Assembly (NCBI GenBank): GCA_017415505.1
Contig: JAFQGG010000018.1
Coordinates: 1-44,466, forward strand
DNA length: 44,466 nucleotides
Origin: Clostridia bacterium
Lineage (GTDB): Bacteria > Bacillota > Clostridia > Christensenellales > Borkfalkiaceae
Direction of reading: 5' to 3'
Positions 1,793 through 33,424 of this stretch are shown here, one piece after another (position 1 is the first letter of the stretch; every line of letters starts with the position of its first letter). The notes beneath the pieces are model-generated. The model made no database searches and was not told where the DNA came from. It worked only from the letters and a program-made list of their open reading frames with translations. The translations under genes were made by a program, and so were the position numbers.

Positions 1793-1835
1793 CTGTTTGG
1801 AGGAAAAAAATAAAAATCGTATTTTTGCGATAAAT

Positions 1836-2162
1836 AAAAACCCGCCGTTTTGACGGCTCGTTTGCTCTCACAAACCCCTTTTCCAAAAAACTTAACCATA
1901 GTTAAGTTTTTAGAAACAAGGGTCAAGGGACGAAGTTCCTTGCGCGGTTTGGGCGCGAAGCCCAAGACCCGCTGTCAAGCGCGCCGTTAGGCGAATCAAG
2001 CCCCATAAAAGCAACCGTAGGTTGCGCTATACGCGAAGCGTTAATCCCGTCGGGGAAGGACGAAAAACTTAACCATGGTTAAGTTTTGAATGAAATCCGC
2101 CTATGGCGGGTGAAACCCAACGCAATGAAATTTTACTTCGCAAAATGGCAGGCTAAGCCTGC
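1836..2162. repeat. Mosaic of palindromic intergenic repeats (copy A)
   Basis: This block between two minus-strand genes has no convincing gene. It holds palindromes CTTAAC-CATA-GTTAAG (about 1886-1911) and TTAACCATGGTTAA (within 2064-2087), a small GCAACCGTAGGTTGC hairpin, the module ACGCGAAGCGTTAATCCCGTC, an AATGAAATTTTAC/GCAAAATG module (2124-2147) and the hairpin GCAGGCTAAGCCTGC (2148-2162). The same modules recur at 13362-13881, some in the opposite orientation. The A/T tails of the TTAACC palindromes would let them act as weak bidirectional terminators. Confidence 0.8.
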
Positions 2163-2195
2163 AAAAAACCCGCCCTTGCGTTATGCAAGGGCGGG
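2163..2195 (-). terminator. Intrinsic terminator of the 1184-residue lipoprotein gene
   Basis: An 11-bp perfect stem CCCGCCCTTGC / GCAAGGGCGGG with a 5-nt loop (2169-2195) is followed on the minus strand by six T residues. It lies 22 bp past the stop codon of the gene ending at 2217. Confidence 0.9.
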
Positions 2196-2216
2196 GAGTT
2201 TTAACGGCGTTTGCCG

Positions 2217-5200: not shown

Positions 5201-5771
5201 CGAGGGGGACGAGATTATCGCCGTCCTTCACCAAGGGCAGATCCTCGTTGTCGATATTGAACGCTTGATAGAAATCAAGATCGGAAAGATTGCGATCGTC
5301 GTTGGCGTCGTTATCCTTCCAAGCCGCGTAATAGTCGAGCTTGTCTTTCGCCGTCATGGTATCCCAAAGCGAAGCCGCTTCTTCCTCGGTAAGCTCCGAC
5401 GCCTTTTTGCCCGTGAGCGCGGAGGTCGTGAGGTCTTTCCAATTTTTGTCGGTAATATCAACGATACCGCTCGCCGCCTTGGACGAAAGCGCCGTACCGC
5501 TCGTCGCGGAGTTGACCGAACGCGTCCAACCGTTGACGGAAGTGCCGATCAAGTTCAAACCGCCGTTGGAGGTAAAGGTTTGGAATCCTGCGTTGGTAAC
5601 GGGATACCCGGAAGTATCCGTCGCCACCTCTTCCGTAGAGGAAGAGCTACTGCTCGAACTTGAAGTATCCTCTTCGCAGGACGCAAGCGCCACTACCGTA
5701 GAGGAAGCCATCAAAGCCGATAAAAGAAGTGCAAGAAATTTCTTCTTGCGGGAAGTATTATTGTTTCTCAT
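2217..5771 (-). CDS. Large surface lipoprotein with C-terminal membrane anchor
   Basis: This 1184-residue protein has a lipoprotein signal with the lipobox ALASC, then a Ser-rich linker, and near the C-terminus a single membrane helix (about residues 1128-1152) followed by a Lys/Arg-rich cytoplasmic-type tail. It may therefore be tethered at both ends. In between are several beta-rich stretches of the form W..Y.F.L...F...GYAFFDDI, which look like jelly-roll carbohydrate-binding modules, although I cannot name the family. An AAGGTGG box precedes the ATG. It has its own promoter (5853-5881) and terminator (2163-2195), so it is a single-gene unit. Function is unknown; carbohydrate or matrix binding is a guess. 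Confidence 0.8.
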   Translation of the reverse strand: MRNNNTSRKKKFLALLLSALMASSTVVALASCEEDTSSSSSSSSSTEEVATDTSGYPVTNAGFQTFTSNGGLNLIGTSVNGWTRSVNSATSGTALSSKAASGIVDITDKNWKDLTTSALTGKKASELTEEEAASLWDTMTAKDKLDYYAAWKDNDANDDRNLSDLDFYQAFNIDNEDLPLVKDGDNLVPLANPLTHDYQAGADLTAKDANNKVLMIHNEYSNSTYTDLGTAQKFTSSSSVTVRAGTSAKFSVWVKTSNLTCTSTDGSSQPVVDKGAYVSVTHTVGGKTLDPLVVKNINTEGVTANNGWLQYEFILKGSSFADSTFTIVLGLGQGGGTDRYEYVNGYAFFDDIQCEIIDNADYDATGLEEITLTSEEKTFYADNTKNEKFALNFFGAFDKGDMLDGAWEIAPVTQKNTYGVQYTAVQADQIATFFPGQDVQTYPGLGLDASKDVHAILDSVSALNDTNNPYKKAVYDDYFKDTDFLTSEKALVLLSAWGVPYEAKSPVITIPAKDEVNDVSGKVAYSFFVKTSDMNGFTGAGVTVKDITDNSSLTSISSIDTTTATAITVNDKELYDGWQQVFIFLSNESENEQKVQISLQFGPTTVVDTTKTSYHAGFAAFAGFEKKTLSDEEYACAASGTYSKLVTLDGEYKDGEGDNGFDSAVKSSKSDIEKGFALLKNYKGVFSDSAYVGGATSNTQINAYAKAGLLNKEHEANYSEILTKLNVANPTWAGAFGASSMATQPLVIYNDAENDDKAYGFIGNSVSISSETYKAVSLSVKVSAGAVANVYLIDTEDDSYSNALSIGRRLTYWYDDDGNVCAKDPTEKGFDKTTDIAFKLQSNGLYKVNASWAGAKDLNKDAYYANLSAYGKNAEGDLVVAENGVTYDYSENWQHEGNDGIAFYNKDGKYYADIAKTVEVLDLASVETLTPRYTAKDGYAAQFTVTDTGNEWATVTFYIHTGSEAKNYRLEVWSGARDNSVVNPDGSFVAFDVRTPNDPDATVFANLIKARQNDLVDEEEYTSTSLSFFNGVFSFLDSDAFLRYDQSKDENEVGNSYESYLSSAYSKTVSALRYTEGNVYEMYADYATLDTTVAADVEEDDTTEDTEEETPAGETNIWLLAGSIVIAGALILAVVSLIIRKVFMKKRRTAPAKTIVRTSAPKMEKKVKKAPVKNDLDETDTYND

Positions 5772-13904: not shown

Positions 13905-15653
13905 ATGAAAGAAAAGAAGGAACAGGAAATAGGCGTAAACCGCTCGTCGGGCGCGAAGAAGGTGGAAACCGTCGCCAAGCAAACGACGGCGGAAGAGAAA
14001 AAGGCGCAAGAGAGCGCCCGCGCGCAGGCGAGGGTAGAGGTCGCTTTGGAGAAACAAAAAGCGAAAAGGGCAAACCGCTGGTCGGAGCTTGCGCGCTTGG
14101 AAGCGGTGGAATACGAAGCCAAAATGAAAAAACGCGCGCAAGAGCGCAAGGCGCTTGCCGAGAAGCGGAAGGCGGAACGGCTTGCGCGCGCGGAGAAATT
14201 GGCGGAAGAGAGAAAAGCGCGTGCGGAAAGGCGTAAGGCGGAAGAAGAGAACCGCGCGCGGGAGCGCGCGCATGCAAAAGCAAGCCGTTCGCAAAAACGC
14301 TCCCGTTCCCGCAAACAAAAACGGGAAAAGGGCTACGGCGGTTGGCTTGCCGCCGTCGTTTCCCTCGGCGCAATCACGCTCGCGCTTACGACCGCCGTCA
14401 CCGTCGGCGCAATCGATATGAAACGGACGAAAGACGGCGTAATGGCGGGGTATCGCGGTATGGCGTACGAACTCGCGGGGGTTATGGAAAACGTGGATAA
14501 CGATCTCGATCGCGCACGCATTTCCAATTCCCCCGTGCAACAGGGGCGTATTCTCACCGACCTTTTGGTACAGGCGCGCCTTGCCGAACTTGATCTTGAA
14601 AAAATGCCCGTGAGCGCGGAATCGGACAAAAATTTGACCGCGTTTATTAACCGCGTGGCAATGGAAAGCGAGCGTATGCTCGCAAAGCTTCGTCGCGGTG
14701 AGAAGCTTTCCACGGGCGATCAGGAAGTTTTGGAGCGTTTGTATCAAGCCAACCATCAAATTCGCACCCGTTTGGACGAGTATATTTCGCAAATGTCGGA
14801 TGGCGATATCGCCTCGTATATGAAAAACGGCGAGGGGCAATTCGGGGATATGCTCACGACGATCGAGGGCTTGACCATGGAGGAAAACCGCCTTGCGCTC
14901 GGCGGGGAAACGGGGCAAAAGACGGGGGCAGGTATGGGACGAAAGCAAGAAGACCCCGCTAAAGAAGGTATGGGTTCGCCCCAAATCGACTCGGTAAAAG
15001 CGGAGGAGCTTTGCGTGCGGTATTTCTCCGATTATAAGATTGCTTCGTTCCAATGCGTAGGGGAAACGAACGCGCGTGGCTTGCACGCGTATAACGTGCA
15101 AGGCTACGCCGACGACGGTACGCAACTGTTTGCCGAATTGGACGTAAAGACGGGCGCGCTCGTGCGGTTCGATTTCTTCGAGGCGTGCGAGGAGAGTACC
15201 TTCGACTTGCAAAACGCAAGACGGATCGCGGAAGAGTTTTTAGGAAAAATGGGGTATGAAGATATGACGCCCGTACGCGTGCGCGAAAACGGTACGGATA
15301 TCGACTTCACTTTCGCTTACCAAACGGACGGCGTGGTGTTCTACCCTGATTCCGTGCGCGTGAAAGTTTGCCGTTCGCGCGGTATGGTTGCGGGTATGGA
15401 CGCTACGAAATATCTCAAAAACCATAAGCGTAGGGAAGCTCCGCAGGCGTATATTACGCTGGAAAGCGCGCAGGGCGCGTTGCATAACGGTTTGACCGTC
15501 GAGGCTTCCCGACTTGCCGTCGTGCATACGGCACGGGGCGAACGCCCCGCTTACGAGTTCCTTTGCTCGTACGGGGAAGAGAAGTATTTTATCTATACGG
15601 ACGCGCAAACGGGCGACGAGATTTCTATTCTGAACGTGAAAAGCGTGGGCTAA
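13905..15653 (+). CDS. ypeB: Germination protein YpeB with a long charged N-terminal extension
   Basis: The 582-residue protein has three parts. Residues 1-143 are almost only Lys, Arg, Glu and Ala, a likely long charged helix or coiled coil. A membrane helix spans about 146-170. The rest resembles YpeB, ending in PepSY-like repeats (RMVAGMDATKYLKNH, then YEFLCSYGEEKYFIYTDAQTG). YpeB is needed for SleB localisation and control in the spore; Bacillus YpeB is about 450 residues and lacks the extension, as far as I know. A GGAGAG box precedes the ATG. Its separation from sleB by repeats and possible terminators is unusual. Confidence 0.88.
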   Translation: MKEKKEQEIGVNRSSGAKKVETVAKQTTAEEKKAQESARAQARVEVALEKQKAKRANRWSELARLEAVEYEAKMKKRAQERKALAEKRKAERLARAEKLAEERKARAERRKAEEENRARERAHAKASRSQKRSRSRKQKREKGYGGWLAAVVSLGAITLALTTAVTVGAIDMKRTKDGVMAGYRGMAYELAGVMENVDNDLDRARISNSPVQQGRILTDLLVQARLAELDLEKMPVSAESDKNLTAFINRVAMESERMLAKLRRGEKLSTGDQEVLERLYQANHQIRTRLDEYISQMSDGDIASYMKNGEGQFGDMLTTIEGLTMEENRLALGGETGQKTGAGMGRKQEDPAKEGMGSPQIDSVKAEELCVRYFSDYKIASFQCVGETNARGLHAYNVQGYADDGTQLFAELDVKTGALVRFDFFEACEESTFDLQNARRIAEEFLGKMGYEDMTPVRVRENGTDIDFTFAYQTDGVVFYPDSVRVKVCRSRGMVAGMDATKYLKNHKRREAPQAYITLESAQGALHNGLTVEASRLAVVHTARGERPAYEFLCSYGEEKYFIYTDAQTGDEISILNVKSVG

Positions 15654-16496: not shown

Positions 16497-16668
16497 GCGA
16501 CCCCAAATTAAATAATTTTCTTTCGAGACGAGTATACTATTTCGGGCATAGTGTACCCATTCGCGTTATAAAAATCTCTTCTCGAAAGACTTCTTATAAT
16601 TTGGTGTCGCAACTGAGCGAAGAAGGCACTCTGCTGTGTCGTTCTTTGCTTGGAACGACACTTTTTTT
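16497..16668 (+). ncRNA. Structured leader RNA, riboswitch- or attenuator-like, class not recognised
   Basis: Helix P1 pairs 16495-16510 with 16597-16612 (15 of 16 positions). P2 pairs TCTTTCGAGA (16519-16528) with TCTCGAAAGA (16580-16589). P3 pairs GTATACTAT (16532-16540) with ATAGTGTAC (16548-16556) around a 7-nt loop. A terminator (16636-16668) follows just before the LRR gene. Two alternative pairings are possible: AGCGAAGAA (16616-16624) with TTCTTTGCT (16642-16650), and the GTGTCG of P1 with the CGACAC of the terminator. It lacks the T-box core and c-di-GMP signatures I looked for. A free-standing small RNA is the alternative. Confidence 0.7.
16636..16668 (+). terminator. Intrinsic terminator inside the LRR gene leader
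   Basis: GTGTCGTTC / GAACGACAC, 9 bp perfect with an 8-nt loop, then seven T residues. The LRR gene ribosome-binding site starts 19 bp later, so readthrough must be controlled for expression. Confidence 0.92.
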
Positions 16669-16698
16669 ATGGCAAAAATTATTATTTGGAGGTTTTTT

Positions 16699-19260
16699 AT
16701 GAACATTTTGAACCGCTTAAAACGCAAAGCGACTCTCTTTTCGCTTGCGCTTTTATGCACTCTTGGCGGAGCGCTTGCGTTGCACGCTACCGCGCCGACC
16801 GTGGAAACGGTAATCCCCGCCGTCGCGGAAGAAACGACGGAATCCACCCCCGTGGAAACTTGGGATATTTCCGCTTCGTCGAACGATAGCGTAACGGCGA
16901 AGCTGTATACCGACCCCGAAAACGAGGGCTATTACACCTTGTCTATCGAAGGCGCGGGGGACATGAAAGATTTTTCTAAACAACCTTGGAAGAATTATAA
17001 CGCTCAAATTAAAAAAGTCGTTATTGAAAATGGTATTACGAAAATTGGAAACTCCGCTTTTTCTGATTTTAGCAGTTTGACGTTTGTTAATATTCCTGGA
17101 AGTGTTGCAACTATTAGGTGGAATGTTTTTTCTTATTGTAATAGCTTAAAGAATATTAATATCCCCGAGGGGGTTAAAAGTATTGAAACTAACGCTTTTT
17201 ATAATTGTAGTAATTTGACCGTCGTCAACATTCCTAAAAGTATAACGAGTATTTCTGACAGTGCTTTTAGCTATTGCAACAATTTGAAAGAAGTACATGT
17301 TACGGATGTAAGTGCTTGGGCTAAAATTGCGTTTAGCGATTTTGAGGCAAATCCTTTGTATTACGCAAAGCATTTGTATTGTAATGGTGAATTGGTTACG
17401 GAAGCAATTATTCAAGGAGTGGATTCAATTGGAGCGTATGCGTTTTACAATTATCAAGCTTTAGAGAAAGTGACGATAGATAAAAGCGTTACGTTTATGG
17501 GTGATAGTGCGTTTTATCAATGCAATAATTTGAAGGAAGTACATATTAGTAATATAAGCGATTGGGTGAAAATTACGTTTGAATATTGGAACTCTAACCC
17601 TTTGGCTTATGCGAAAAATTTGTATTGCAATGGTATGTTGGTGACGGAGATAGATATACAGGACGCAAATAACGTTGGTAAATCTGCATTTTTTGGATGT
17701 GAAAGTTTACAAAAAGTAACGATTGGTGGAAATGTAAAGAGTTTAGGAGATTCTTCGTTTAGAGGATGTGTAAACTTGGAAACCGTAACCGTTTCCGGTG
17801 ATGTTTCTTCTATTGGACTTGGCACATTTTATGGTTGCAGAAATTTAACAAGCGTTAATATTTTAGCAAGGGTTAAGAGTATTGGGGATAACGCATTTGA
17901 TAATTGCAGTAAGTTAAAGACGATTAATCTGCCGGAAGGTCTTACAAGCATCGGTTCGCAAGCATTTGGTTATTGTAGTAGCTTAACCAGTATAAATATC
18001 CCTAGCACGGTTGCGAGTATTGGTTCTTATGCCTTTAGCAATTGTAGTGGTTTGAAAGGAGTGATGAACCTTCCTGAAGGAATCACCGTTATTAATAGTT
18101 ATACTTTTATTGGCTGTAGCAGTTTAACAAGTATCAATATTCCTGAGGGAGTTAAGACTATTGGTTCGTTTGCATTTATCGATTGCTCCAACTTAACGAA
18201 CGTTACGATTGATAGCGCGGAGGTTGCCGAGGCGTTGACCGATAAGACCGCGTGCGGGTATCTCGTAAATTACGCCGACGAGATTGCCGTGCGCGGGGAT
18301 ATTGAAACGGTGGGGGCGTACGTGGCGGGATTCCCGTATTCCACCGTGCTCACCTACGACGGTGTGGAGTACGTGGTGTACACGCAAGAAAAGCACGCGT
18401 ACACGGTCAAGAGCGCATTCCTCAATTTGAACGACAATATTAACGTGGTATACCGTATGTCCGTACCCGCAGGGTACGAGGACGCGTACGCGGTGTTCGA
18501 GTTCCAAGGCGAGGCGTACGACGTGAAAGAATATACGGTGGATAGTAACGGTTTGCTTTGCTTCACCTTCTCCAAGGTAATGCCCCAATACATGGCGGAC
18601 AACATTTGCGTAACGCTTTACGCCATGCAAGACGGTGTGGAAGTAGGCAAGACGAAGGCGACTTACAGCGTGAAGGAGTACTGCGAATACATGCTTTCGA
18701 GTACGACGGACGAGAAGCTTATCCGCTTGATTTCGGATATGCTCTACTACGGCGAAATGACGCAAAATTACAGAAACTACAACGAGGACGCGCCGATTAC
18801 GGGCGGAATGGATATTACGCCGAGCGAGTTTGTGGAAATGGACGAGAGTCACAACAAGTTGTTGCTTACGGGCGACAAGGGCGCGATTGATTGGAAGGGC
18901 GCGGGCTTATTCCTTGAAAACGACATGACGGTGCGCTTTAAGTTCGTGGCGGAGAGTTTGACGGGCTTAACGGTAGAAGTGAGCGTGAACGGCAGAACGA
19001 ACGTATTTACGGAAAGCGATTTCGTATACGAAAACGGCGCGTATTACGCGTATTTCAAGGGCGTGGCGGCGCACGAGTTCGACGACGCGTTCACGGCGAT
19101 AATCAAGAAAGATGGCGCGCAGGTGGGCAGAACCTTGACCTATTCGGTCAACTCGTATATTTACGACGCGCAAGGCAAGGCGACGGGAGATTTGCTCGCG
19201 CTCGTGAAAGCCATTTACAACTACGGCGCTTCGGCGTTGGCGTATAACCAAGCAAATTAA
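16699..19260 (+). CDS. BspA-like leucine-rich-repeat surface protein
   Basis: The 853-residue protein starts with a signal peptide (about residues 1-32). From about residue 95 to 510 it has tandem BspA-type (LRR_5) repeats of the form LTSINIPSTVASIGSYAFSNC, about 23 residues each. Residues 510-853 form a different beta-rich region with repeated VKSAFLNLNDNINVVYR / GLFLENDMTVRFKFVAE units and no recognised anchor. Such proteins are secreted or surface-bound adhesins. GGAGG sits 6 nt before the ATG. The LRR part is clearly AT-richer than both ends. Expression is probably gated by the structured leader upstream. Confidence 0.9.
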   Translation: MNILNRLKRKATLFSLALLCTLGGALALHATAPTVETVIPAVAEETTESTPVETWDISASSNDSVTAKLYTDPENEGYYTLSIEGAGDMKDFSKQPWKNYNAQIKKVVIENGITKIGNSAFSDFSSLTFVNIPGSVATIRWNVFSYCNSLKNINIPEGVKSIETNAFYNCSNLTVVNIPKSITSISDSAFSYCNNLKEVHVTDVSAWAKIAFSDFEANPLYYAKHLYCNGELVTEAIIQGVDSIGAYAFYNYQALEKVTIDKSVTFMGDSAFYQCNNLKEVHISNISDWVKITFEYWNSNPLAYAKNLYCNGMLVTEIDIQDANNVGKSAFFGCESLQKVTIGGNVKSLGDSSFRGCVNLETVTVSGDVSSIGLGTFYGCRNLTSVNILARVKSIGDNAFDNCSKLKTINLPEGLTSIGSQAFGYCSSLTSINIPSTVASIGSYAFSNCSGLKGVMNLPEGITVINSYTFIGCSSLTSINIPEGVKTIGSFAFIDCSNLTNVTIDSAEVAEALTDKTACGYLVNYADEIAVRGDIETVGAYVAGFPYSTVLTYDGVEYVVYTQEKHAYTVKSAFLNLNDNINVVYRMSVPAGYEDAYAVFEFQGEAYDVKEYTVDSNGLLCFTFSKVMPQYMADNICVTLYAMQDGVEVGKTKATYSVKEYCEYMLSSTTDEKLIRLISDMLYYGEMTQNYRNYNEDAPITGGMDITPSEFVEMDESHNKLLLTGDKGAIDWKGAGLFLENDMTVRFKFVAESLTGLTVEVSVNGRTNVFTESDFVYENGAYYAYFKGVAAHEFDDAFTAIIKKDGAQVGRTLTYSVNSYIYDAQGKATGDLLALVKAIYNYGASALAYNQAN

Positions 19261-22451: not shown

Positions 22452-23066
22452 ATGACGAAATCGGTAGCGAAAAAGAAATTGATTATTACGGTCGCCGCGT
22501 TAGCGGTTACGACCGGCTTTTTCGCGTACGGAACGAGAGCGTATTTCACCGATAAAGTCACCTCGGGCAAGAACGTTATTTCCGTCGTGGGCGTAAACGA
22601 CGTACAGCTCGTCGATTTGTCTTACGCGCAAGGCGGGTTGCTTTTACCGCCCGACCAACCCGTTCCCGTTATGCCCGGACAAAGCGTTGGAAAGACGGTG
22701 TCCGTCAAGAATACGGGCGAGTCGCCTATTTTCGTGCGCATTAAACTTACGCCGAAAATTATTTTATCGGAAAAAGAAGCGGGCAGAGAAAGCGAAATCG
22801 ACCTTTCTTTGGTGCGCTTTGAAATAGATGAAACGAAGTGGTTATACCAAGACGGGTATTATCACTATTATCTCCCGTTGGAGGGTGGCGAAGAAACGAA
22901 AAATTTGATTCCCGCCGTTACTTTTAGTCCCGAAATGGGGAATATGTACAAAGACAGTCTTATTTTGGTTACGACGAGAATGGAAGTGGTGCAAGCCAAT
23001 TATAACGCTTCGTTCGTGCTTGACGCGACGGGGTGGGCGACGCCTACGGAAGGAGGTACGCCGTGA
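22452..23066 (+). CDS. TasA/camelysin-like SipW-type secreted protein 4
   Basis: The 204-residue paralogue has a signal helix followed by GTRAYFTDKVTSGKNVISVG-like sequence and the element PVMPGQSVGKTVSVKNTGES, typical of the immunoglobulin-like TasA/camelysin fold. Its last codons overlap the start of the giant surface protein by 4 bp (GTGA), so the two are translationally coupled and may act together, for example as adaptor and adhesin. Confidence 0.8.
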   Translation: MTKSVAKKKLIITVAALAVTTGFFAYGTRAYFTDKVTSGKNVISVVGVNDVQLVDLSYAQGGLLLPPDQPVPVMPGQSVGKTVSVKNTGESPIFVRIKLTPKIILSEKEAGRESEIDLSLVRFEIDETKWLYQDGYYHYYLPLEGGEETKNLIPAVTFSPEMGNMYKDSLILVTTRMEVVQANYNASFVLDATGWATPTEGGTP

Positions 23067-26000
23067 TAAAGAATAGACTGCGCTATATATTTATCGTTCT
23101 GCTTTCCATGCTGTTCGTGTTTACCTTCTCAACGGCAATAGGCGTATCGTCCATACGCGCGGAAAACGGGAATGGACAAACGGTGGAAACGACGGTTACG
23201 CAAACGCCGAAAGTGGTGATTTTGCACGAAGATGCACAAAAGAGCGTGCTTTCCATCAAAGAAGACGAAAAAACGAAGCTCGTTGCACGCGTAACGGGTT
23301 TGGAAAAATATACGCGGAATTGGCAAATTCTCAATCCCGCAAGCAACGAATGGGTTAACATTTACGGAAAAACGCAAGAAAGTTTGGAACTTAGTTATTC
23401 TTTGCTTGGCAGTATGCTGAACGCGAAGAGTAAAGCGTATATCCGTCTTGCCGTACAGGGCGAAAGCGGGCTGTATGCGAGCGAGGCGGTGGAAGTGACG
23501 GTGACCCGTAACGTTTTGGGCGAAAACGGGGAATTTTTACTCGACGCGTTCGAAGCGTATAACGCGGACACGGCGGAAGAGGAAGAAAAGTTCGAGATTT
23601 TCACCATCGTTATCAACTATATTTTCGATAACGGCGGGATTGCGTTCGAACCGTACGGCGCGTCCGTTGCCAAGGGTAGCGATTTCGTGAAATCCATTAC
23701 GAGCCCCGTGGTCGTCGGGTATAAGCCCGTACGGCGAGTGGACGGAGAATACGTGGATGCAACCACGGTGGAACTTAACTACACGAACGTACAGGAAAAC
23801 AAGACGGTGAACGTTATTTACGAGCCGGATATGGTAAGTTTCCAAGTGCATCACCACTTGCAAAACCTGTTGGACGACGATTATTCCCTTTCTTATAATT
23901 ATATTACGGAAGGGAAAGCCTTGACGGGCAGTATCGTACCCGACGGGCTTGCGTATACGGAAGAAGAACTTCCCGGGTTTAAGGCGCTTGCCTATGAAAA
24001 ATTGGAAGTGGCGGCGGACGGCAGTACCGTCGTGGAAATCCGTTACGACAGAAATTATTATCTCGTCGAGTTCGATATGTTAGGCGGTTACGGTACGGAA
24101 CCCGTATATACCCGTTACGGCGCGTCGGTTGGTGCGAATAAGCCCATTCGTCACGGTTATTTGTTCGACGGTTGGACGCTCGTTTCGTATAACGGCGCAA
24201 CCCCCACCTCGTCGCAGGCGTCTATGTACGATATCAACAGCGCGATTATCACCGTTCCGAACGCAAATCTTAAATATAGAGCGCGTTGGAGAACGCAACT
24301 TACCACCTATACGATGGTATTCTGGCGGGAAAACGCCGACGACGACGCGTTTGCGTACTGGGGATATTTGGAGGGGATTTCCGCGATGTCCGGTTCGCTC
24401 GCAAGCGGTGCGGACAGGGCGGACGAGGTTGACGATATCAACGATTACGCGCAATTTACTTATAACGAAGCGTTGACGGAAAAAGATATTATCGTGGAAG
24501 GTGACGGCTCGACCATCGTCAACGTATATTACACGAGAAAACGATATACGATTACGGTGAAAGCAACGGCGAAATGCGCTATTCCCACCAACCACTCGCA
24601 CGGCGACGATTGCTATTTATACCTTTGCGAAGCGTCGCATACGCACGATGAAAGCTGTAATCCTACCCTTTCGTGCTTGCTGGAAGAGCATACGGAGCAT
24701 ACGGCGGAGTGTATCGTTTGCGGAAAGGAAGAACATAGTCACGGCGAGGGCTGTTGCGCTCTTGCGGAGCATACGCATACCACCTCTTGTTGGGGACAGG
24801 GTATGGTGGGAAATTCGACGAATCCCACGGGCGCGCCGAGAAATCCCGAACAAGGGCAAATTTACCGTCGTAAACAAGGAAAAAATTATTCCTACTATAT
24901 ATATATAAAGGGGACTTGGTACACCTATAACGGTACGGGTACGAACGGGGCTATTTTAGACCCCACTTGCGGATACGACGTAGAACATGAGCACGGCGGG
25001 GACGATTGTAGCTGTAATAAAGAAGTGCACGCGCACGGGGACAGCTGTTACAGAGATTCTTTCCATACGCACGGCAAGCATTGTTATTCGTATTCTTGCG
25101 GTACGAAGGAACATACGCACAGCGACGATTGCAAGCTTCTCAACTGCGGAATTCCTACGGGACATACTCATTCGAGCAACTGTAACAACGCAGGGCGTTC
25201 GAATACGGTAAAACTTATTTACCGCAAGTACGAGCAAAGTTTGAAAGACGTTTGGCCTATCGTGGACGGGAACGGCGTTATTTACGACGACGGTCAGCGT
25301 TGGCAACCGAGCGGGTCTTCCACCTATTCGGCGGTGCTCGTGTATATTTCGCATATGCCCGGGGAAAATTTCACCCTTACCCTCAACGAGAGTAATTACG
25401 ACCAATATAATATGCATTATTATATGGAAGTGTTGCCGGGTGAACCGTATACGCATAGTTATACCTATAACGGTGTAACCAAGAATTTCATTTTGGAAAA
25501 TACGATTACGGCGCGGTATAACTATATCACGCAGGCGGAAGACTTCTTCGAAATCCACGGCTACGAGCGGTTTACTTCCAATCCGAGATTTAACGGTACG
25601 CAAATCGATATCAACGGCGGGGGCGACGTGCATTTCTATTATTCGCGTACGGTAAACCAAACGCTCCGTTTCAAAAATAAGAGCGAGGTGCTTGACGATA
25701 AAACGGTACAAGGGGTTATGTACGGCGCGAAGTTGAAAGATTACGAGTTTACGCCCGATTATCCCGCGGAATTAGAGCCGAACGCGTTTGTCTTCGACGG
25801 GTGGTATACCACGCCCGGGCTGTACGACGGCACGGAAGTGGACTGGAATACGGCGACGATGGCGGCGGTGGACGTCATGTATTACGCGAAATGGGCGCCT
25901 ATACGCCATACGGTAAGCGTGTATTTAACGAGCGAACTCACCGAGCAAATCGGGGAAACGCAATCGGTGGAACACGGCAACTTCGCCCATGCGCCGAGCG

Positions 26001-27694
26001 ACCTCGTTTCTAACGGGAACTACATTTTCCAAGGCTGGTTCTACGAGGACGAAGAAAACGGCGAGAAGGTGGAAAAGGCGTTCGTGTTCAGCGGGATTCC
26101 GATTTTGCAGGACTTGAAAGTGTACGCCAAGTGGAGCTCGCACGTAACGGTGAGCTACACCATTCATTATCGCTTGAAACCGACGAACGGGCAAACGGAG
26201 GGTACGCAAATCGCGGACACGCTCGTTGGCTCGGCGATCGCGGGGCATAACAAGACCTTCTTAGCGAAGGCGGGTGCGGAGCTGTACGAGGGCTACCAAA
26301 CGGGGTATTATCCGCTCGCCAACAGCCATACCGTAACCATGAGCGCGGAATCCGACCACGAATATACGTTCGAATACGTGTTCGTAGAGTCTATGCCGTA
26401 CGCCGTCGTGTATTTGGACGAAAACGGGAATGAAGTCGCGCCGAAGAAGGTCGTCACCGACAATAATTTGTCCGTCGTAACGGAAACCTTCGTGCGCGTG
26501 GATAAAAAGATGCCCGACGCGTACCAAAAGCGATTGTTGCTCGTGGCAGAGGGTACGAATAAAGACGAGTACGGCGTGTTTGCGGAAAACGTGATTACCT
26601 TCCACTACACTTCGGACGAAGAACACGCGTACTACAAAGTCGTGCATTATATTGAAAATATCGCTACGGACGGGTATAGAGAATACCGTTCGGAAGACAA
26701 CGTGGGCGTTATCGGGCAACCGTATTCCGTGGACGCGCTTGCTTTGACGGGCTTTACCTTTAAGGGCGCAAAGACGATGGTGAACGGCGTTTCCTCGCCC
26801 GTGACGGGAACGCAAGTTTCCGCAACGCTTACGCCCGACGGCTTGCTGTTCGAGTTGTATTACGATAGAAACGATTTGAGTTACGTCGTTAATTATCTCG
26901 AATCGGGTACGGAAAAAGTGCTGTATAAGCAAAAGACGGGCGAAGGTATTTACGGGGAACAAATCGTAGAATACGCGATTGGGCTTACCTCTTTGGGGTA
27001 TAGCCTCGTCAGCGAAAACGTAAAAACCGTTACGCTTTCCACGAACGAGAATTTGAACGTTATCAATTTCTATTATCAAGAAATGGAAATTTCCATTCAA
27101 TATAAACTCGTTGGGTTGAGCGGTTGCGGAAACCTCTCGCAAATGGGTGAACACTTGAAAGCGGTGACGGGCGTTTCGAACGGTTCGACGCCAATCGTAT
27201 CTCGTGGATATCATTTCGTCGGCTGGTTCATGGACGAAGCTTGTACGATACCCGTTAATCCGGCGTGGGTGGGTGCGGATTATACGCTTACCCCTCAAAA
27301 GGAAAAAGCCGTTTGGGAAAACTCGCTCGTATTCTACGCGAAGATTGACCCTGATTTCACTTCGCTTACGATAAGGACGGAGGGAGCGTCCGCGTTGGAT
27401 GCAAACCAAGCGTTTATCTTCCGCGTGCAAGGCGTTTCTGCCGATACGCAGAGCGTAGATTTGTACGTGACGGTAATCGGCAACGGCTCGGTGACGATTA
27501 CGAATCTTCGTTTGGGAAGCTATACGATTACGGAAGTGAGCGGTTGGTCTTTCCGCTACCAAGCGGACGAAGCGCAAAAGAGCGTTGCGCTTTCGGTAAA
27601 TAAAGACGAGAACGTCGTTTCCTTCCTGCATATTCGCACGATGGATAAGTGGTTGGACGGCAACGCGCAAACGAACAACACTTTTAACGGCTGA
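23063..27694 (+). CDS. Giant adhesin-like secreted protein with His/Cys array, InlB-type and MucBP-like repeats
   Basis: The 1543-residue protein (GTG at 23063, GGAGGT 5 nt upstream) has a signal peptide; a MucBP-like unit at about 260-330; an InlB/Listeria-Bacteroides repeat at about 333-412; a His/Cys-rich array at 505-709 with about ten HxHxxxC-type motifs; two more InlB-type units (868-947 and 948-1026; FVFDGWYTTPG, FQGWFYEDEEN); several MucBP-like units (1033-1340); another InlB-type unit; and a final SpaA/prealbumin-like domain (about 1430-1526). No LPXTG or C-terminal helix is seen, so attachment is probably through the SipW-dependent fibre proteins. Role in adhesion is inferred. Confidence 0.85.
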   Translation: MIKNRLRYIFIVLLSMLFVFTFSTAIGVSSIRAENGNGQTVETTVTQTPKVVILHEDAQKSVLSIKEDEKTKLVARVTGLEKYTRNWQILNPASNEWVNIYGKTQESLELSYSLLGSMLNAKSKAYIRLAVQGESGLYASEAVEVTVTRNVLGENGEFLLDAFEAYNADTAEEEEKFEIFTIVINYIFDNGGIAFEPYGASVAKGSDFVKSITSPVVVGYKPVRRVDGEYVDATTVELNYTNVQENKTVNVIYEPDMVSFQVHHHLQNLLDDDYSLSYNYITEGKALTGSIVPDGLAYTEEELPGFKALAYEKLEVAADGSTVVEIRYDRNYYLVEFDMLGGYGTEPVYTRYGASVGANKPIRHGYLFDGWTLVSYNGATPTSSQASMYDINSAIITVPNANLKYRARWRTQLTTYTMVFWRENADDDAFAYWGYLEGISAMSGSLASGADRADEVDDINDYAQFTYNEALTEKDIIVEGDGSTIVNVYYTRKRYTITVKATAKCAIPTNHSHGDDCYLYLCEASHTHDESCNPTLSCLLEEHTEHTAECIVCGKEEHSHGEGCCALAEHTHTTSCWGQGMVGNSTNPTGAPRNPEQGQIYRRKQGKNYSYYIYIKGTWYTYNGTGTNGAILDPTCGYDVEHEHGGDDCSCNKEVHAHGDSCYRDSFHTHGKHCYSYSCGTKEHTHSDDCKLLNCGIPTGHTHSSNCNNAGRSNTVKLIYRKYEQSLKDVWPIVDGNGVIYDDGQRWQPSGSSTYSAVLVYISHMPGENFTLTLNESNYDQYNMHYYMEVLPGEPYTHSYTYNGVTKNFILENTITARYNYITQAEDFFEIHGYERFTSNPRFNGTQIDINGGGDVHFYYSRTVNQTLRFKNKSEVLDDKTVQGVMYGAKLKDYEFTPDYPAELEPNAFVFDGWYTTPGLYDGTEVDWNTATMAAVDVMYYAKWAPIRHTVSVYLTSELTEQIGETQSVEHGNFAHAPSDLVSNGNYIFQGWFYEDEENGEKVEKAFVFSGIPILQDLKVYAKWSSHVTVSYTIHYRLKPTNGQTEGTQIADTLVGSAIAGHNKTFLAKAGAELYEGYQTGYYPLANSHTVTMSAESDHEYTFEYVFVESMPYAVVYLDENGNEVAPKKVVTDNNLSVVTETFVRVDKKMPDAYQKRLLLVAEGTNKDEYGVFAENVITFHYTSDEEHAYYKVVHYIENIATDGYREYRSEDNVGVIGQPYSVDALALTGFTFKGAKTMVNGVSSPVTGTQVSATLTPDGLLFELYYDRNDLSYVVNYLESGTEKVLYKQKTGEGIYGEQIVEYAIGLTSLGYSLVSENVKTVTLSTNENLNVINFYYQEMEISIQYKLVGLSGCGNLSQMGEHLKAVTGVSNGSTPIVSRGYHFVGWFMDEACTIPVNPAWVGADYTLTPQKEKAVWENSLVFYAKIDPDFTSLTIRTEGASALDANQAFIFRVQGVSADTQSVDLYVTVIGNGSVTITNLRLGSYTITEVSGWSFRYQADEAQKSVALSVNKDENVVSFLHIRTMDKWLDGNAQTNNTFNG

Positions 27695-28422: not shown

Positions 28423-28704
28423 TTATTTTTTTTCGATAATCGATTTGTAACCGCCCTCGCCGTAGCGCACGCATTTGGAAACGCGTGCGAGCGTTGCCGA
28501 GGAAATTTCCGTTTCTTCCACGATTTCGCTGTACGTTTTGCCTTTGAGTAGCATTTTCGCCGCTTTGAGCCGTTGACACATGGATTCGAGTTCCTTGATC
28601 GTGCAAAGGTCGTCCAAGAACTTTTGCGCCTCTTCTTCCGTTTCGAGCTTTATAATTTCCGCGTAAAGCTCTTTGAGCATAGGTCTGTAATTTTTGAGCG
28701 TCAT
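28423..28704 (-). CDS. YerC/YecD family TrpR-related DNA-binding protein
   Basis: The 93-residue protein is a small all-helical TrpR-like repressor: LDDLCTIKELESMCQRLKAAKML, then the helix-turn-helix KTYSEIVEETEISSATLARVSKCVRYGEGGY, the YerC/YecD signature. Its ATG overlaps the ATP-binding protein stop by 4 bp (ATGA), so it is coupled to the transporter. By position it may sense or control amino-acid supply and repress its own operon; the effector is unknown. Length and motifs match the family closely. Confidence 0.9.
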   Translation of the reverse strand: MTLKNYRPMLKELYAEIIKLETEEEAQKFLDDLCTIKELESMCQRLKAAKMLLKGKTYSEIVEETEISSATLARVSKCVRYGEGGYKSIIEKK

Positions 28705-29498
28705 TGTTCCACCTCCGTTTTGGCAAAAAAGTTTTGCGTTTTTTCACTCTTGGCGTGCTCGAAAATATCCTCGGGCGCACCCATTTCTTCGATTACGCCG
28801 TCCGCCATGAAAATAATTTTGTCCGAAACGTTTTTCGCGAACTCTATTTCGTGCGTGACGATAATCATGGTCCTGCCCTCGTCGCGCAGTTGCTTGATGA
28901 CTTTGAGCACCTCGCCCGTAAGTTCGGGGTCGAGCGCGCTCGTCGGTTCGTCGAAACAAAGAATATCGGGGGAGAGGGCGAGCGCGCGCGCAATCGCGAC
29001 GCGTTGTTGCTGTCCGCCCGAAAGCTCGCACGGGTAGTTTTTCATTTTATTTTCCAAGCCCACGCGCGCGAGGAGTTCTTTTGCCGTTTCCTCGTTTTGC
29101 GCGTACGCTTCTTTGAGCCGTCTGCGCCGTTCCGCGCCCTTGCAGGGCGTCGCCTTGATCTCGTTTTGCGATTTTATATTCATGGCGAGCGTTACGTTTT
29201 GCAGGGCGTTGTATTGCGGGAAGAGGTTGAAATTTTGAAACACCATGCCGAAAGTGCAGGGATTGCCCTCTTTCGCCTTTCCCTTTTCGGGCGGGAAGAT
29301 TCGCTTTCCGCCCACGGTGATTTCGCCCTCGTCCGCCGTTTCCAAAAAGTTCAAACAGCGAAGCAGGGTGGTTTTCCCGTTCCCCGAAGAACCGAGCACG
29401 GAAAATACCTCGCCCTGTTCCATTTCAAAGGAAACGCCTCGCAAAACCTTCGTTTCGCCGAAATTTTTAACGATATTTTTAACTTCCAAAAACGCCAT
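28701..29498 (-). CDS. Polar amino-acid ABC transporter, ATP-binding protein
   Basis: The 265-residue ATPase has Walker A GSSGNGKTT (36-44), the Q-loop segment GMVFQNFNLFPQYNALQNV, signature LSGGQQQR, Walker B DILCFDEPTSALDPE and the switch histidine in IIVTHEI. Closest by pattern to GlnQ/HisP-type proteins. It carries an extra charged insertion of about 20 residues (KGAERRRRLKEAYAQNEE) before the signature motif. The gene lies 2 bp after the permease and overlaps the regulator gene, forming one operon. Confidence 0.95.
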   Translation of the reverse strand: MAFLEVKNIVKNFGETKVLRGVSFEMEQGEVFSVLGSSGNGKTTLLRCLNFLETADEGEITVGGKRIFPPEKGKAKEGNPCTFGMVFQNFNLFPQYNALQNVTLAMNIKSQNEIKATPCKGAERRRRLKEAYAQNEETAKELLARVGLENKMKNYPCELSGGQQQRVAIARALALSPDILCFDEPTSALDPELTGEVLKVIKQLRDEGRTMIIVTHEIEFAKNVSDKIIFMADGVIEEMGAPEDIFEHAKSEKTQNFFAKTEVEQ

Positions 29499-29500
29499 GA

Positions 29501-30187
29501 TTACACCTTATAATAGGACAGTTTCTTTTCCACCCAACCGAGTAGCAGGGTAAGCAATCCGTTGAAAATCAAATAAAAGATTGCCGCGTAGAGGAAGGGG
29601 GTCAAAATTACGTACTCGTTTACCGCGTGTTTCGCCGCGTTGAGCAAATCGATTACGCCCAAGATTTGCGCCAAGGAAGTGTCCTTGACGAGGGTGATAA
29701 TCTCGTTGCTCATGGGCGGTAAAATGCGCCGAACGACTTGCATAAACACGATTTTCGTGAATACTTGGTTCTTCGTCAAGCCGAGCACTTTTCCCGCCTC
29801 GTATTGCCCCACGGGAATCGTTTCTATCCCCGCGCGGTAAATTTCCGAAAAGTAGCACGCGTAATTGATAACGAACGCTACCGCCACGAAAAAGAACATG
29901 GTGGCGTTGATGGACAGGTTTAACGCCGAGGCGAGCTGTTTCGTGGGTACTTGGAAAACGTACTGCGGAAGAAAGCTCACGAGCAAGATTTGGAGCATCA
30001 ACGGCGTACCGCGAATTACCCAAATCAACACCTTCATAAACCATTGTAACGGCTTAAATTTCGACATAGAGCCGAACGCGAACAACAACCCCAAGGGCAA
30101 AGCGCATAAAAGGGTAACGGCGAAGAGTAGGACGGTGTTCCCAAACCCTTCGCACAGTTCCATCAAGATTTCTTGAAAATGTTCCAT
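29501..30187 (-). CDS. Polar amino-acid ABC transporter, permease
   Basis: The 228-residue membrane protein has about five helices and the HisM/GlnP-type motifs FIRGTPLMLQI-like (VIRGTPLMLQILLV) and the EAA loop EAGKVLGLTKNQVFTKIVFMQVVRRILPP. It is the only permease in the operon, so it probably works as a homodimer. It lies 3 bp downstream of the substrate-binding lipoprotein gene. Confidence 0.94.
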   Translation of the reverse strand: MEHFQEILMELCEGFGNTVLLFAVTLLCALPLGLLFAFGSMSKFKPLQWFMKVLIWVIRGTPLMLQILLVSFLPQYVFQVPTKQLASALNLSINATMFFFVAVAFVINYACYFSEIYRAGIETIPVGQYEAGKVLGLTKNQVFTKIVFMQVVRRILPPMSNEIITLVKDTSLAQILGVIDLLNAAKHAVNEYVILTPFLYAAIFYLIFNGLLTLLLGWVEKKLSYYKV

Positions 30188-30190
30188 AAA

Positions 30191-31042
30191 TTATTCTTTC
30201 GCGCCTACGATTACCGTTTCGCCCGCCGAACCGCTTTCCGCCGTCATAATTGCGTCCGCCATACTCTCTTTCGTCGTATATTTGTCCGCGTCCGCTTTCG
30301 TTACGACCGCCACTTGCATATTGTAAAGATAGGGCACGGAAACGCACATTTGCGCCGAGCGGTCGGGCGTGATCGTCATACCGTTCCAAATGAGGTCGAT
30401 CGAACCGTTTTCCAGAAGCGTTTCTTTCGAGTTCCAATCGATAATGAGGAATTCCACTTCGATATTTTGGCTGTAAGTCGTGTTCAAATACGCAACCGCC
30501 TTTTTCGCAAGCTCGATATCAAAACCCGTGTTTTCGTCCATGGCAATCGGCGCAAACACCGTGTATCCGATAACGATTTTGCCCGAAGATACCACTTCGT
30601 CCCAGCTCGAATCGGTCGCGTCCGCGTAGGGATTTACCGTTTCCGCCGTGAGTGCGATCGAATCGGTCAAGCCGTATTTCGCCGCGATTTCCGCGTAGTC
30701 CGTCGTACGAATGGCAAGGAGCGCCTCGTTGATTTTGGATACCAACGCCTCGTTTTCTTTCTTGCCCGCGATCCCGTAGCTCTCTTCCGCGAAGATAAGC
30801 CCGTCTACCATTTCCATTTTATTTGCGTAGTCGCCCGTGGAGGTGTAGTAACCCGCCATAACCGAGTCGATAATCGCTACGTCCGCTTCGCCTTTGTCAA
30901 GCTTGGTGAGCGCGTCTAATTGGGTCGCCGCCGCCAAAAACTCTTTCCCGACTTCCAACTTGTCGCCACCGCACGCCGTCGCGCCCAAAACGCAAGTTGC
31001 CGCCAAAGCAACGCCTACTACTTTTACTACCGTCTTTTTCAT
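30191..31042 (-). CDS. Circularly permuted amino-acid ABC substrate-binding lipoprotein
   Basis: The 283-residue protein has a lipoprotein signal with lipobox GATAC (Cys24). Residues 29-127 (LDALTKLDKGEADVAIIDSV, then FAEESYGIAGKKENEALVSK) are what normally ends an SBP_bac_3 protein. After a linker, residues 143-283 (GKIVIGYTVFAPIAMDENTG, FDIELAKKA, IDWNSKETLLENGSIDLIWN, GSAGETV) are what normally begins one. The old termini are joined and the new ones lie in a loop of lobe 2. The frame is uninterrupted and all landmark motifs are present once. It binds a polar amino acid, likely outside the membrane, for the permease downstream. Confidence 0.93.
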   Translation of the reverse strand: MKKTVVKVVGVALAATCVLGATACGGDKLEVGKEFLAAATQLDALTKLDKGEADVAIIDSVMAGYYTSTGDYANKMEMVDGLIFAEESYGIAGKKENEALVSKINEALLAIRTTDYAEIAAKYGLTDSIALTAETVNPYADATDSSWDEVVSSGKIVIGYTVFAPIAMDENTGFDIELAKKAVAYLNTTYSQNIEVEFLIIDWNSKETLLENGSIDLIWNGMTITPDRSAQMCVSVPYLYNMQVAVVTKADADKYTTKESMADAIMTAESGSAGETVIVGAKE

Positions 31043-31267: not shown

Positions 31268-33424
31268 GTGAAGAAAATATGGTTAGGGATAGGCGTTATC
31301 GCCGTTTTGGGCACTACGCTTTTGAGCGCGGGGTGCAAGACGAAAGTGGAAGGCGGAAAGGAAGCGGTGAAACTCTTGCTTGCGCAGGAACGCTTGGACG
31401 AAAAGCTTTTAGAGGGGAACTTGGACGCGCTTTGGAACGGAGCGCAAGAATCGGTGCGCAATACGAGCGGGGTAAAAGTCAACGCGGTTGCGCCGATGGG
31501 ATTGAAGAATACGCTCGTCGCTTCGGCGGACGACGAAGGGTTCGAGGATAAGGGCGAGTATTACGAGTGGACGAAATTCCCCGCGTACTCTTCCACCTTC
31601 GGGCAGTTTGAGTCGTTTATAGACGGCATTGAAAGGCAGGCAACGGATACCGCCGAGCTGATCGCGAAAATGAAGGATAAGGTGGGCGTCACCGATAAAT
31701 GGGTGAAAAACGCGGCGGGATATAAAAGCGACTGTATGTTGCGCGTGAAAGAGGACGCGGAGTATTTGTTCGTACGCTCGGAGAGTTATTACGAGGTGGG
31801 CAAACGCTACACGCGCGCGGACGCGAAAAACGTGTACGAAACGTATAGCTATTATAATTACGAGGACGGCACGACGGGGGATATCCGCGCGCAGTATATT
31901 CCCGGAGAGCGGTACGAATCCATGTACGATAACGACAACGGGTTCAAAGATTACGTAATCGCGGAAAATTCGCGCGGGTATTGGACGCTCATGCGTTTTG
32001 GTACGTTCGACGGTAGCGAGTATTCCTTCGACGTTTGCGTGATTCGCGACGGCGTGGGATATAATTCGTTCGTGCAGTTGCAAGACGACGGAATATCTTC
32101 GGCGTGGTATACGGTGCTCGATCCCGAAAGCGGTAGGGAGTATTTCCGTTTAAGACCAAGGGCAGATCGTTGGGAGATAGAACTTTCGCTTTGCGCGCTC
32201 GGCGAGGGCTTCGGGGGCTTGCGCGCCTACGGCGATTTGAAAGACCAAGTGTATAGAGGTCGCGACGGGTACGAGTTCGAATATCCCACGGAGCTTGCGT
32301 TCGTGACGAAGAACGGCGAGGTGCAAGCGGGCGACTCTCAGAACGGCGTTTCTTATAACGGCGCGCGCGTAGTCATTGAACCGTTCGATAGATTTTATCA
32401 CGGCGAATTGAGTTTTGAAGTGGCCACGAGCGAGAACGCGCACGTTTCCGAGGTGTTGGAAAAGCTGGACGCGTATTTCAATTCGTACGGCGTGAAAACG
32501 CTGTACGATCACGCGAAAACCTGCCAAGGCGTGGAGTTTTGCAACCTGCTCACGCAGGAGTTCGGCACGACCTATTCTTGGTACGGCTATCCGCTCAATA
32601 GCTTGGAGAACGCGAATAAGGCGCGCGCGGAGTTGTTGGAAGAGTACGCAACGCACGATAAAATGTACGCGGAAGTGAAGGATTTTGAAACGGTGCGCGC
32701 AAGACAAAAGCTTGCCAGCGGAGTGGACTTTGCCAAGCTTACCGCGTTTAGCGGTGGCGAAAGCAAGTACGAAAACGGTAAGATTACCCTTTCGAACGCG
32801 ACGGCAACCCTCGAACAAACCGCGCTGTTGGAAGTGGGCGCGGAATACGGCTTGCATATCGGGCTTTCGCTCGTGAACGAGGCGGGGGATTTGAGTAGCG
32901 TAAACACCGTTTCCATGAAGGGCGGGAGCGGACGAACGACCGTCTTTGCCGAGGGCGCGACGACGCTCACCTGCACGCAAGCGGGAGAATTTATCCTGCC
33001 GAAGAACTTGGGCGAGGGCAGATACGCGGTCGTGGCGTACGTGGCGGATACGGACGGACTTCGCGTGAGCGAAATGCAACCGATCGCGTTCTACGAAGCG
33101 GAGGAAGGCGAACTCGAATCGGAGGCAATGCGCGTGACGACGGCAAAGGCGGGGAACAATTTGCTCGTGACCTACGAGATTCAGCTTTCCGTTTGGGCGG
33201 TTGCGGAAGAGAATAAGAAGTACAAAGGGAGCGAGCTGGAACGCGTACTCCTGCGCGAGGCGCTCGCTTGCGGGTATCCCAAGACGGGCGAATCGATTAC
33301 GGACGAGAACGGCGAGGAAGTGGCAAAAGACGAGGAATTGCCCGCGGGCGTATACCGCTTGAAGATATATCTTCCCACGGCGGACGGTATTTCGGAAGCG
33401 TTCGTATACTGCGAGATTCAATAA
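31268..33424 (+). CDS. Putative lipoprotein of unknown function, 718 residues
   Basis: The GTG start at 31268 follows AAAGGAGAAG. The protein has a lipoprotein signal with lipobox SAGC (Cys23). The body is mixed alpha/beta, rich in Tyr, Glu and Lys, without a domain I recognise; residues from about 500 on look like one or two beta-sandwich units (VSMKGGSGRTTVFAEGATTL). It is alone in its transcription unit. Extracellular and membrane-tethered by signal; function unknown. Confidence 0.82.
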   Translation: MKKIWLGIGVIAVLGTTLLSAGCKTKVEGGKEAVKLLLAQERLDEKLLEGNLDALWNGAQESVRNTSGVKVNAVAPMGLKNTLVASADDEGFEDKGEYYEWTKFPAYSSTFGQFESFIDGIERQATDTAELIAKMKDKVGVTDKWVKNAAGYKSDCMLRVKEDAEYLFVRSESYYEVGKRYTRADAKNVYETYSYYNYEDGTTGDIRAQYIPGERYESMYDNDNGFKDYVIAENSRGYWTLMRFGTFDGSEYSFDVCVIRDGVGYNSFVQLQDDGISSAWYTVLDPESGREYFRLRPRADRWEIELSLCALGEGFGGLRAYGDLKDQVYRGRDGYEFEYPTELAFVTKNGEVQAGDSQNGVSYNGARVVIEPFDRFYHGELSFEVATSENAHVSEVLEKLDAYFNSYGVKTLYDHAKTCQGVEFCNLLTQEFGTTYSWYGYPLNSLENANKARAELLEEYATHDKMYAEVKDFETVRARQKLASGVDFAKLTAFSGGESKYENGKITLSNATATLEQTALLEVGAEYGLHIGLSLVNEAGDLSSVNTVSMKGGSGRTTVFAEGATTLTCTQAGEFILPKNLGEGRYAVVAYVADTDGLRVSEMQPIAFYEAEEGELESEAMRVTTAKAGNNLLVTYEIQLSVWAVAEENKKYKGSELERVLLREALACGYPKTGESITDENGEEVAKDEELPAGVYRLKIYLPTADGISEAFVYCEIQ

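Follow-up and report, generated by a model that had tools for sequence, protein, structure and literature searches.

The window, by which we mean the whole stretch of DNA that was analyzed (44,466 nucleotides), contains a gene for a naturally circularly permuted lipoprotein of the SBP_bac_3 family. Taking the sequence comparisons together, we consider it very likely that the product is a working permuted receptor, that its gene was rotated in place and that such rotations have been recurrent.

The binding-protein gene of the window

The binding-protein ORF occupies positions 30191-31042 of the minus strand, starts with an ATG at 31042 and translates to 283 aa. A Pfam profile search placed the protein in the SBP_bac_3 family (PF00497, 77.2 bits versus a cut-off of 26.4), which was the sole Pfam family above its own cut-off, and it did not qualify as a type I sugar-binding protein. 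The segments of the fold were named, in canonical order, b1, N, g, c1 and c2; in the window protein they run c1-c2-b1-N-g, which is not the linear order of a canonical SBP_bac_3 protein. The features of this gene and of the two transporter genes beside it are as follows.

30974..31042, minus strand: signal peptide, residues 1-23 (translation)
30971-30973, minus strand: lipobox-type Cys, residue 24, presumably lipidated (lipobox pattern)
30830..30955, minus strand: segment c1, about residues 30-71, the canonical middle/C-terminal part of SBP_bac_3, with Asp59 of the IIDSV motif; here first (PDB alignment, segment HMM order)
30668..30829, minus strand: segment c2, about residues 72-125, the canonical C-terminal part (EESYGIAGKK...KINEALL...KYGL; PDB alignment, segment HMMs)
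30593..30667, minus strand: linker, about residues 126-150, from the canonical C-terminus to the canonical N-terminus (linker comparison)
30533..30592, minus strand: segment b1, about residues 151-170, the canonical first strand (KIVIGYTVFAPIA; PDB alignment, segment HMMs)
30293..30532, minus strand: segment N, residues 171-250, GFDIELA ... WNGMTITPDR ... PYLYNMQVAVV, which carries W219, N220, G221, T223 and R228 (Pfam, PDB alignment, segment HMMs)
30194..30292, minus strand: segment g, residues 251-283, lobe-2 entry, with GSAGE; here last (PDB alignment, segment HMMs)
30191-30193, minus strand: stop codon of the binding-protein gene
29501..30187, minus strand: amino-acid ABC permease gene of the same operon (EhuD/ArtM/GlnP-type NCBIfam matches; conserved neighbor)
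28701..29498, minus strand: ABC ATPase gene of the same operon (best NCBIfam match GlnQ; conserved neighbor)

An earlier note on this DNA had claimed that the parts of the protein occur in swapped order, and the alignments bore this out. The PF00497 match was split in two, with the best stretch covering residues 167-259 on profile positions 13-101, and the protein aligned to the PDB chain 3hv1_A with its halves exchanged (residues 145-275 on chain positions 12-139, residues 38-122 on 161-245). When the window protein was rotated in silico to canonical order (residues 144-283 followed by 26-143), it matched 3hv1_A in a single stretch (3-237 on 13-245, 90.2 bits) instead of the two pieces obtained in natural order (64.4 and 18.2 bits). 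One stretch of the rotated protein likewise covered positions 13-130 of the 132 in the Pfam SBP_bac_3 profile, with the total Pfam score rising merely from 77.2 to 79.8 bits, and the best stretch of TIGR01096 went from profile positions 35-145 before rotation to 42-249 of 250 after it. The breakpoint was found directly after GSAGE, at the position that the note had given. As Pfam gives just a partial best match for such proteins, profile annotation hides rotated genes of this kind. The second SBP_bac_3 gene of the same genome (L216, on contig C17) was in canonical order when read by eye.

The permease and ATPase genes follow the binding-protein gene directly, in the arrangement of an amino-acid ABC importer operon. 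The permease scored above the cut-off of TIGR01726, the ATPase scored below the equivalog cut-off of GlnQ, and none of the substrate-specific NCBIfam equivalog cut-offs was reached in the window operon. The operon had been described as intact, and consistent with this a matching permease and ATPase adjoin the gene and are conserved as its neighbors in relatives. Based on this gene content, the window protein is probably the receptor of an amino-acid ABC importer.

Several other genes of the window were recorded. A Trp repressor family protein (PF01371) is encoded at 28423-28704 on the minus strand and shares a few bases with the end of the ATPase gene; it is possibly a member of the transporter operon and its regulator. 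On the other strand beside the binding-protein gene, an ORF at 31268-33424 (+, 718 aa) is lipoprotein-like in translation, and neither this ORF nor the one at 2217-5771 (-, 1184 aa) had a Pfam match at 1e-4. The translation of 23033-27694 (+) is a predicted 1553-aa surface protein with many His/Cys-rich HTHDESC-like stretches, and that of 16636-19260 (+) an 874-aa protein with BspA-type leucine-rich repeats (PF13306). A YpeB-type sporulation protein is encoded at 13905-15653 (+), with the YpeB match starting at ORF residue 182; either the protein has a long N-terminal extension or the start was called too early.

Five cyclic orders among relatives

The mature window protein was doubled and used as a query, against which any rotation aligns unbroken, and 145 of 398 genomes of the window's family had a match in this search. 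The set analyzed comprised 196 distinct ORFs, counting that of the window, which came from 215 loci and were classed by the segment at which they start: canonical (b1), A (c1, as in the window), B (c2), C (N) and D (g). By the doubled-query alignments 61 ORFs were canonical, 45 A, 39 C, 31 B and 7 D, with 13 left without a class; with the scan by segment HMMs, which were built from the same alignments so that the two methods are linked, 194 were assigned (canonical 61, A 48, C 40, B 37 and D 8). Two loci, L036 and L039, stand outside these class counts, L199 was counted as A and could be D (segment g was not detected in it), and in 17 ORFs one segment HMM matched twice and the best match alone was used. 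The numbers are counts of orders and not frequencies, because rearranged matches were fetched preferentially and the sample is non-random.

All five cyclic orders occur among the 196 ORFs, and the order strings from the segment HMMs fit the alignment classes. Since the segment borders were set at the observed breaks, the pattern of one class per border arises partly by construction, unlike the absence of non-cyclic orders, none of which was clearly present among the 196 ORFs when rows with an undetected segment were counted as consistent. A candidate class with the first strand at both ends was rejected as an artifact of signal-peptide alignment, the mature part starting at GFD; six C-order rows with an early alignment start also begin their mature part at GFD when read. 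The linkers of the rearranged orders have median lengths of 28-32 residues and the canonical tails medians of 7 and 18.

The orders are spread over 25 (canonical), 10 (A), 11 (B), 7 (C) and 7 (D) family codes. All four rearranged orders are present in the window's taxonomic order, where 158 of 396 genomes matched at E 1e-12, and A, B and D were found in further families of its class (222 of 341 genomes with a match). One of the C-order genes (L031) is from a Clostridia bacterium from water deer cecum. In the phylum sample 138 of 299 genomes matched, and the matches listed outside the window's class had canonical start and end positions except for G1135 (L227), whose gene reads in D order, and one odd row (G1178:C11, 17-472). 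Taken as a group, these genes have the properties of natural circular permutants, in that all parts are homologous, the orders are cyclic only and an unpermuted homolog is found at the same locus; the near relatives that differ in order from the window's own clade have B or C order and not the canonical one.

A group of distant paralogs from the same family (L032-L038, L040, L041, L153 and L154), about 24-32% identical where measured, is nearly all of B order and is perhaps a second lineage of rotated binding proteins. The divergent SBP at L039 (G133, 2010-2828) reads D-like, with the lobe-2 strand first, and the segment HMMs found only c2 and N in it. Tandem SBP arrays were seen at L042 (G115, 1831-4772; one canonical and two A-order genes) and L147 (G373, 2517-5525; three A-order genes), and arrays of this sort are a possible raw material for rearrangement.

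Conservation of the rotated gene

A search of related genomes for the same order, proposed in the earlier note, found it in independent genomes and in open frames. In a sample of 151 genomes of the family, 77 had a match (E 0.001), and in nine genomes besides the window's own there was a protein near-full-length collinear with the window protein at 52-69% identity, including three (G074, G071 and G114) with 68-69% over almost the full query. Further same-order relatives at 73-75% identity were among the matches listed for the 398 family genomes, so that the same order together with the same operon was found in other genomes at 52-75% identity. The dN/dS was 0.03-0.31 in 59 of 67 same-order pairs where defined (pairs of 72-99.5% identity; 26 C, 23 A, 16 B and 2 D), and these pairs are under purifying selection.

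The pocket motifs of SBP_bac_3 (the aromatic after b1, W-N-G-x-T, Arg, GSxG and Asp) are all in the window protein. In all five orders W219, N220, G221, S272 and D59 are nearly invariant, the Y89 column holds either Tyr or Phe, and most rows retain T223 and E87; we take these W/N/G/T/R/S/D/E/Y columns to be pocket residues, as in the LAO- and Gln-binding proteins. The fraction of rows with Arg at the R228 column was 30/45 in A, 21/27 in B, 35/40 in C, 7/8 in D and 33/59 in the canonical order (rows with a score <200 left out of the key-column counts). Given the proximity of the canonical termini and the location of the new ends in loops, the rotated chain would still fold into the usual two lobes and bind an amino acid. 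The permutation would then shift the tether point of the lipid anchor alone, in the window protein to lobe 2.

These observations bear on two simpler readings of the window. An assembly or binning error might be suspected from the draft state of the genome, which is in 54 contigs and of which the window is one whole contig, but other assemblies have the same order in open frames and the dN/dS of same-order pairs is well below 1, which makes such an error next to inconceivable; as the same order and operon occur in other genomes, the order in the window is not an assembly error. It is very improbable as well that the rotated gene is decaying or has become a remnant without function, in view of its open frame, its signal peptide and lipobox, the conserved operon, the purifying selection and the retention of the key pocket columns. 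Both readings were rejected on the basis of the same order in relatives and the low dN/dS. The claim that the protein is likely to work agrees with the open frame, operon, selection and pocket columns, and the rotated gene probably encodes a working binding protein.

Rotation in place

Downstream permease genes accompany 40 of the 48 A, 34 of the 37 B, all 40 C, all 8 D and 56 of the 61 canonical genes; the remainder include three genes whose locus ended too early to tell. At the DNA level, the window (A order) and L055 (C order) match collinearly from the upstream region through the signal peptide as far as +55, after which two blocks are swapped (A +77..+499 corresponds to C +413..+835, and A +516..+834 to C +96..+414), and 1.49 kb downstream is again collinear at 74%. 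The window and L054, both of A order, have DNA that is collinear throughout. In the window clade, the coding body between the lipid Cys and the stop was rotated in situ, the upstream DNA, signal peptide, permease and ATPase being collinear while the body is rotated.

Of the rows compared, the D-order L198 and the canonical L208 were the most similar two that differ in order (78.9% over 256 residues); they have two swapped DNA blocks, collinear upstream DNA and shared downstream genes in the same sequence. Four of the five genomes in the genus of L198 had a match at E 1e-60, two of D order (loci L228 and L229) and two canonical (L230 and L232), and the identity was 88% for L229 (D), 75% for L230 and 71% for L232 (both canonical). 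A gene of 355 aa lies between the SBP and permease genes of L208 (3384-4451), and the same kind of gene is found at L230 (354-1421), where the downstream genes are displaced by ~1.1 kb; it is not there in the D-order L228.

Repeated changes of order

For the trees, all rearranged proteins were first brought into canonical order by rotation, and rows with a score <200 were excluded. A quick tree of 135 rows needed 13 changes of order. In a 65-row tree, the C-order L015 and L055 fell within a clade formed with the window and six other A-order genes (100/97), and this nine-row A and C clade was nested in a mixed A/B/C clade (98/95); L015 and L055 are from the window's own genus, which therefore holds both A and C orders. 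The permease tree (64 rows) recovered the same nine-row A and C clade (SH-aLRT 95) and a 26-row A/B/C group (SH-aLRT 97). Trees of the half-genes broadly agreed on the nearest neighbors and were weak: by their starred branches, the N-half forces at most one change per order and the C-half at most two.

A single clade was rejected by AU tests for all four rearranged orders, with p-values of 8e-5 for C and 0.0019 for A in the 65-row set and of 3e-10 for B and 9e-5 for D in a 67-row set. In the 65-row set, one clade was not rejected for L015, L055 and L016 (p 0.19) or for the canonical rows (p 0.27), for which reason an apparent reversion from C to canonical order (L103 and L143, within C in the quick tree) was set aside. 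The diverse tree of the 67 rows contained 21 order changes, compared with a minimum of 4 and a shuffled mean of 40.0, in a topology whose bootstrap is unsettled, with 29 of 64 inner branches open and the deep branching poorly resolved. The single event put forward in the earlier note is difficult to reconcile with a count so far above the minimum and with the rejection of every rearranged order as one clade. The trees and tests indicate instead that the binding-protein gene was rotated repeatedly, at four break points, and not once.

Junction footprints and a probable mechanism

The D-order linker of L229 consists of KYGLVQGIEAAKAAQ followed by GTENETVPAAESDLAYVKSKG, whose lengths equal those of the canonical C-tail of L230 (KYGLTDSVAAAANAQ) and of its residues after the lipid Cys (GSQNASETSTESDWAYVQNKG); the tail lengths of the canonical L232 differ from those of L230. 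The gene of L229 ends in AALAQ-stop, compared with AANAQ-stop in the canonical gene, as would be the case had the original stop and the codons before it been retained too. In the window clade, the g-c1 loop of the C-order L055 (SVI-DKLDVGKEY) is like an A-order C-tail (ETVI) joined to the tail after the Cys (DKLEVGKEF in the window), and this resemblance points to A to C as the direction of change, while the loop of its sister L015 reads SVVQDQDLGAEY, without such a footprint. Since a linker pattern like TxNPyAxATDxSW is common to most close A, B and C relatives, the changes among these orders were probably conversions of one rotated form into another. These footprints, all of them short, vary across loci, and the D and canonical loci of the same genus also differ by the extra 355-aa gene in the canonical ones.

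Based on the junction residues in related loci, the course that we favor as likely for each event is that the mature body was first duplicated and two deletions followed. An in-frame tandem duplication would fuse the final codons of copy 1 to those that follow the lipid Cys in copy 2, and a rotated body would remain after two deletions, one lying behind the signal peptide and the other ahead of the original stop codon. A tandem duplication with loss of the outer halves had been suggested from the window alone, and it is supported by the junction residues, mainly those of the same-genus rotated and canonical pair, but no fused tandem intermediate was found among the matches listed in the family, order, class and phylum samples. 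Remnants of segments in the flanks were nearly absent, with 1 of 866 segment matches outside known SBP ORFs (L007, 3052-3297).

The scarcity of intermediates and remnants is what would be expected if the genes were instead rotated by cut-and-paste, by fission and fusion or through a circular DNA intermediate, with no tandem duplication and deletion, and the almost exact abutment of the swapped blocks in L055 (versus the window), together with the shortness of the duplication footprints and their absence in L015, also fits that route. We nevertheless regard it as unlikely, because the D and canonical pair seems to keep both outer tails, the linker corresponds to the C-tail plus the tail after the Cys, as duplication predicts, and no free half-genes were seen in the flanks scanned. 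A different objection is that there were few real permutation events and that the orders are ancient paralogs sorted by gene loss and conversion, in support of which one could cite the tandem SBP arrays of some genomes, one of them of mixed order (L042), and the two AU tests that did not reject single clades. This is less probable still, since the permeases next to A and C genes of 71-75% identity are close relatives and group in a single clade, D and canonical genes that are 71-75% identical are found within one genus with collinear upstream DNA, and every rearranged order was rejected as one clade. Beyond the preferred course of duplication and two deletions, it is conceivable, albeit doubtful, that an ongoing process in Clostridia (a DNA mechanism biased toward duplicating exactly the mature body, or selection to move the lipid tether) re-cuts the fold at four loops, passing from A to C without a canonical form.

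Comparison with known permuted proteins

PDB matches of B- and D-order relatives (33 and 47 sequences, E ≤1e-10) included no solved single-domain SBP_bac_3 permutant. The best stretches stay on one side of the old termini except for that of 6h30, a tandem two-domain construct whose domain junction aligns across the D linker. No report of natural or recurrent SBP_bac_3 permutation was listed by the searches of open-licence PMC papers, some of which were directed at permutation in general. As far as we have seen, the phenomenon is known, and the full set of rotations, their recurrence and the change within a genus are new; the published natural permutants of binding proteins that we came across are either single or old cases and lack a close relative with another order. 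Here all rotations occur in one bacterial group and near relatives differ, which makes the steps of the process, the tolerated breaks and the effect of the anchor testable. In particular, the consequence of anchor relocation for the importer can be addressed directly in these relatives, and the design of sensors from binding proteins could draw on the four loops that were reused as break points.

The circular permutations of DNA methyltransferases and of saposin/swaposin, with Jeltsch (1999) and Bujnicki (2002) among the references, are explained by duplication and trimming, and models by duplication and by fission and fusion are both described (PMC3320104). Intermediates are said there to be documented for the methyltransferases, in contrast to the matches listed here, among which there was none.

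The nearest relation of the window protein is the canonical SBP_bac_3 protein (PF00497; PDB 3hv1 and 4ohn), with which it shares family, segments, pocket motifs, lipoprotein-type signal and operon, and from which it differs in the rotated segments, the linker between the old termini and the lipid anchor, which would be on another loop. A parallel for the permutation is TpMglB-2 (Tp0684) of Treponema pallidum and Gram-positive relatives, a glucose-binding type I protein described in PMC4990184 as a natural circular permutant ('Type Ic') in which the first three N-lobe strands have moved to the C-terminus. It resembles the window protein in being permuted by nature, tethered and the binding component of a probable ABC importer, and it still binds its ligand; it represents one permutation in a sugar family, whereas ours is a recurrent permutation of SBP_bac_3 at four break points. 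Natural circular permutation among two-lobed proteins is also described, in PMC2395249, between glycine betaine- and molybdate-binding proteins and for CysB, with the glycine betaine-binding proteins permuted relative to each other as well. Those relationships were drawn from structure comparison at <24% identity, whereas the orders compared here change at 71-79% identity and within a genus.
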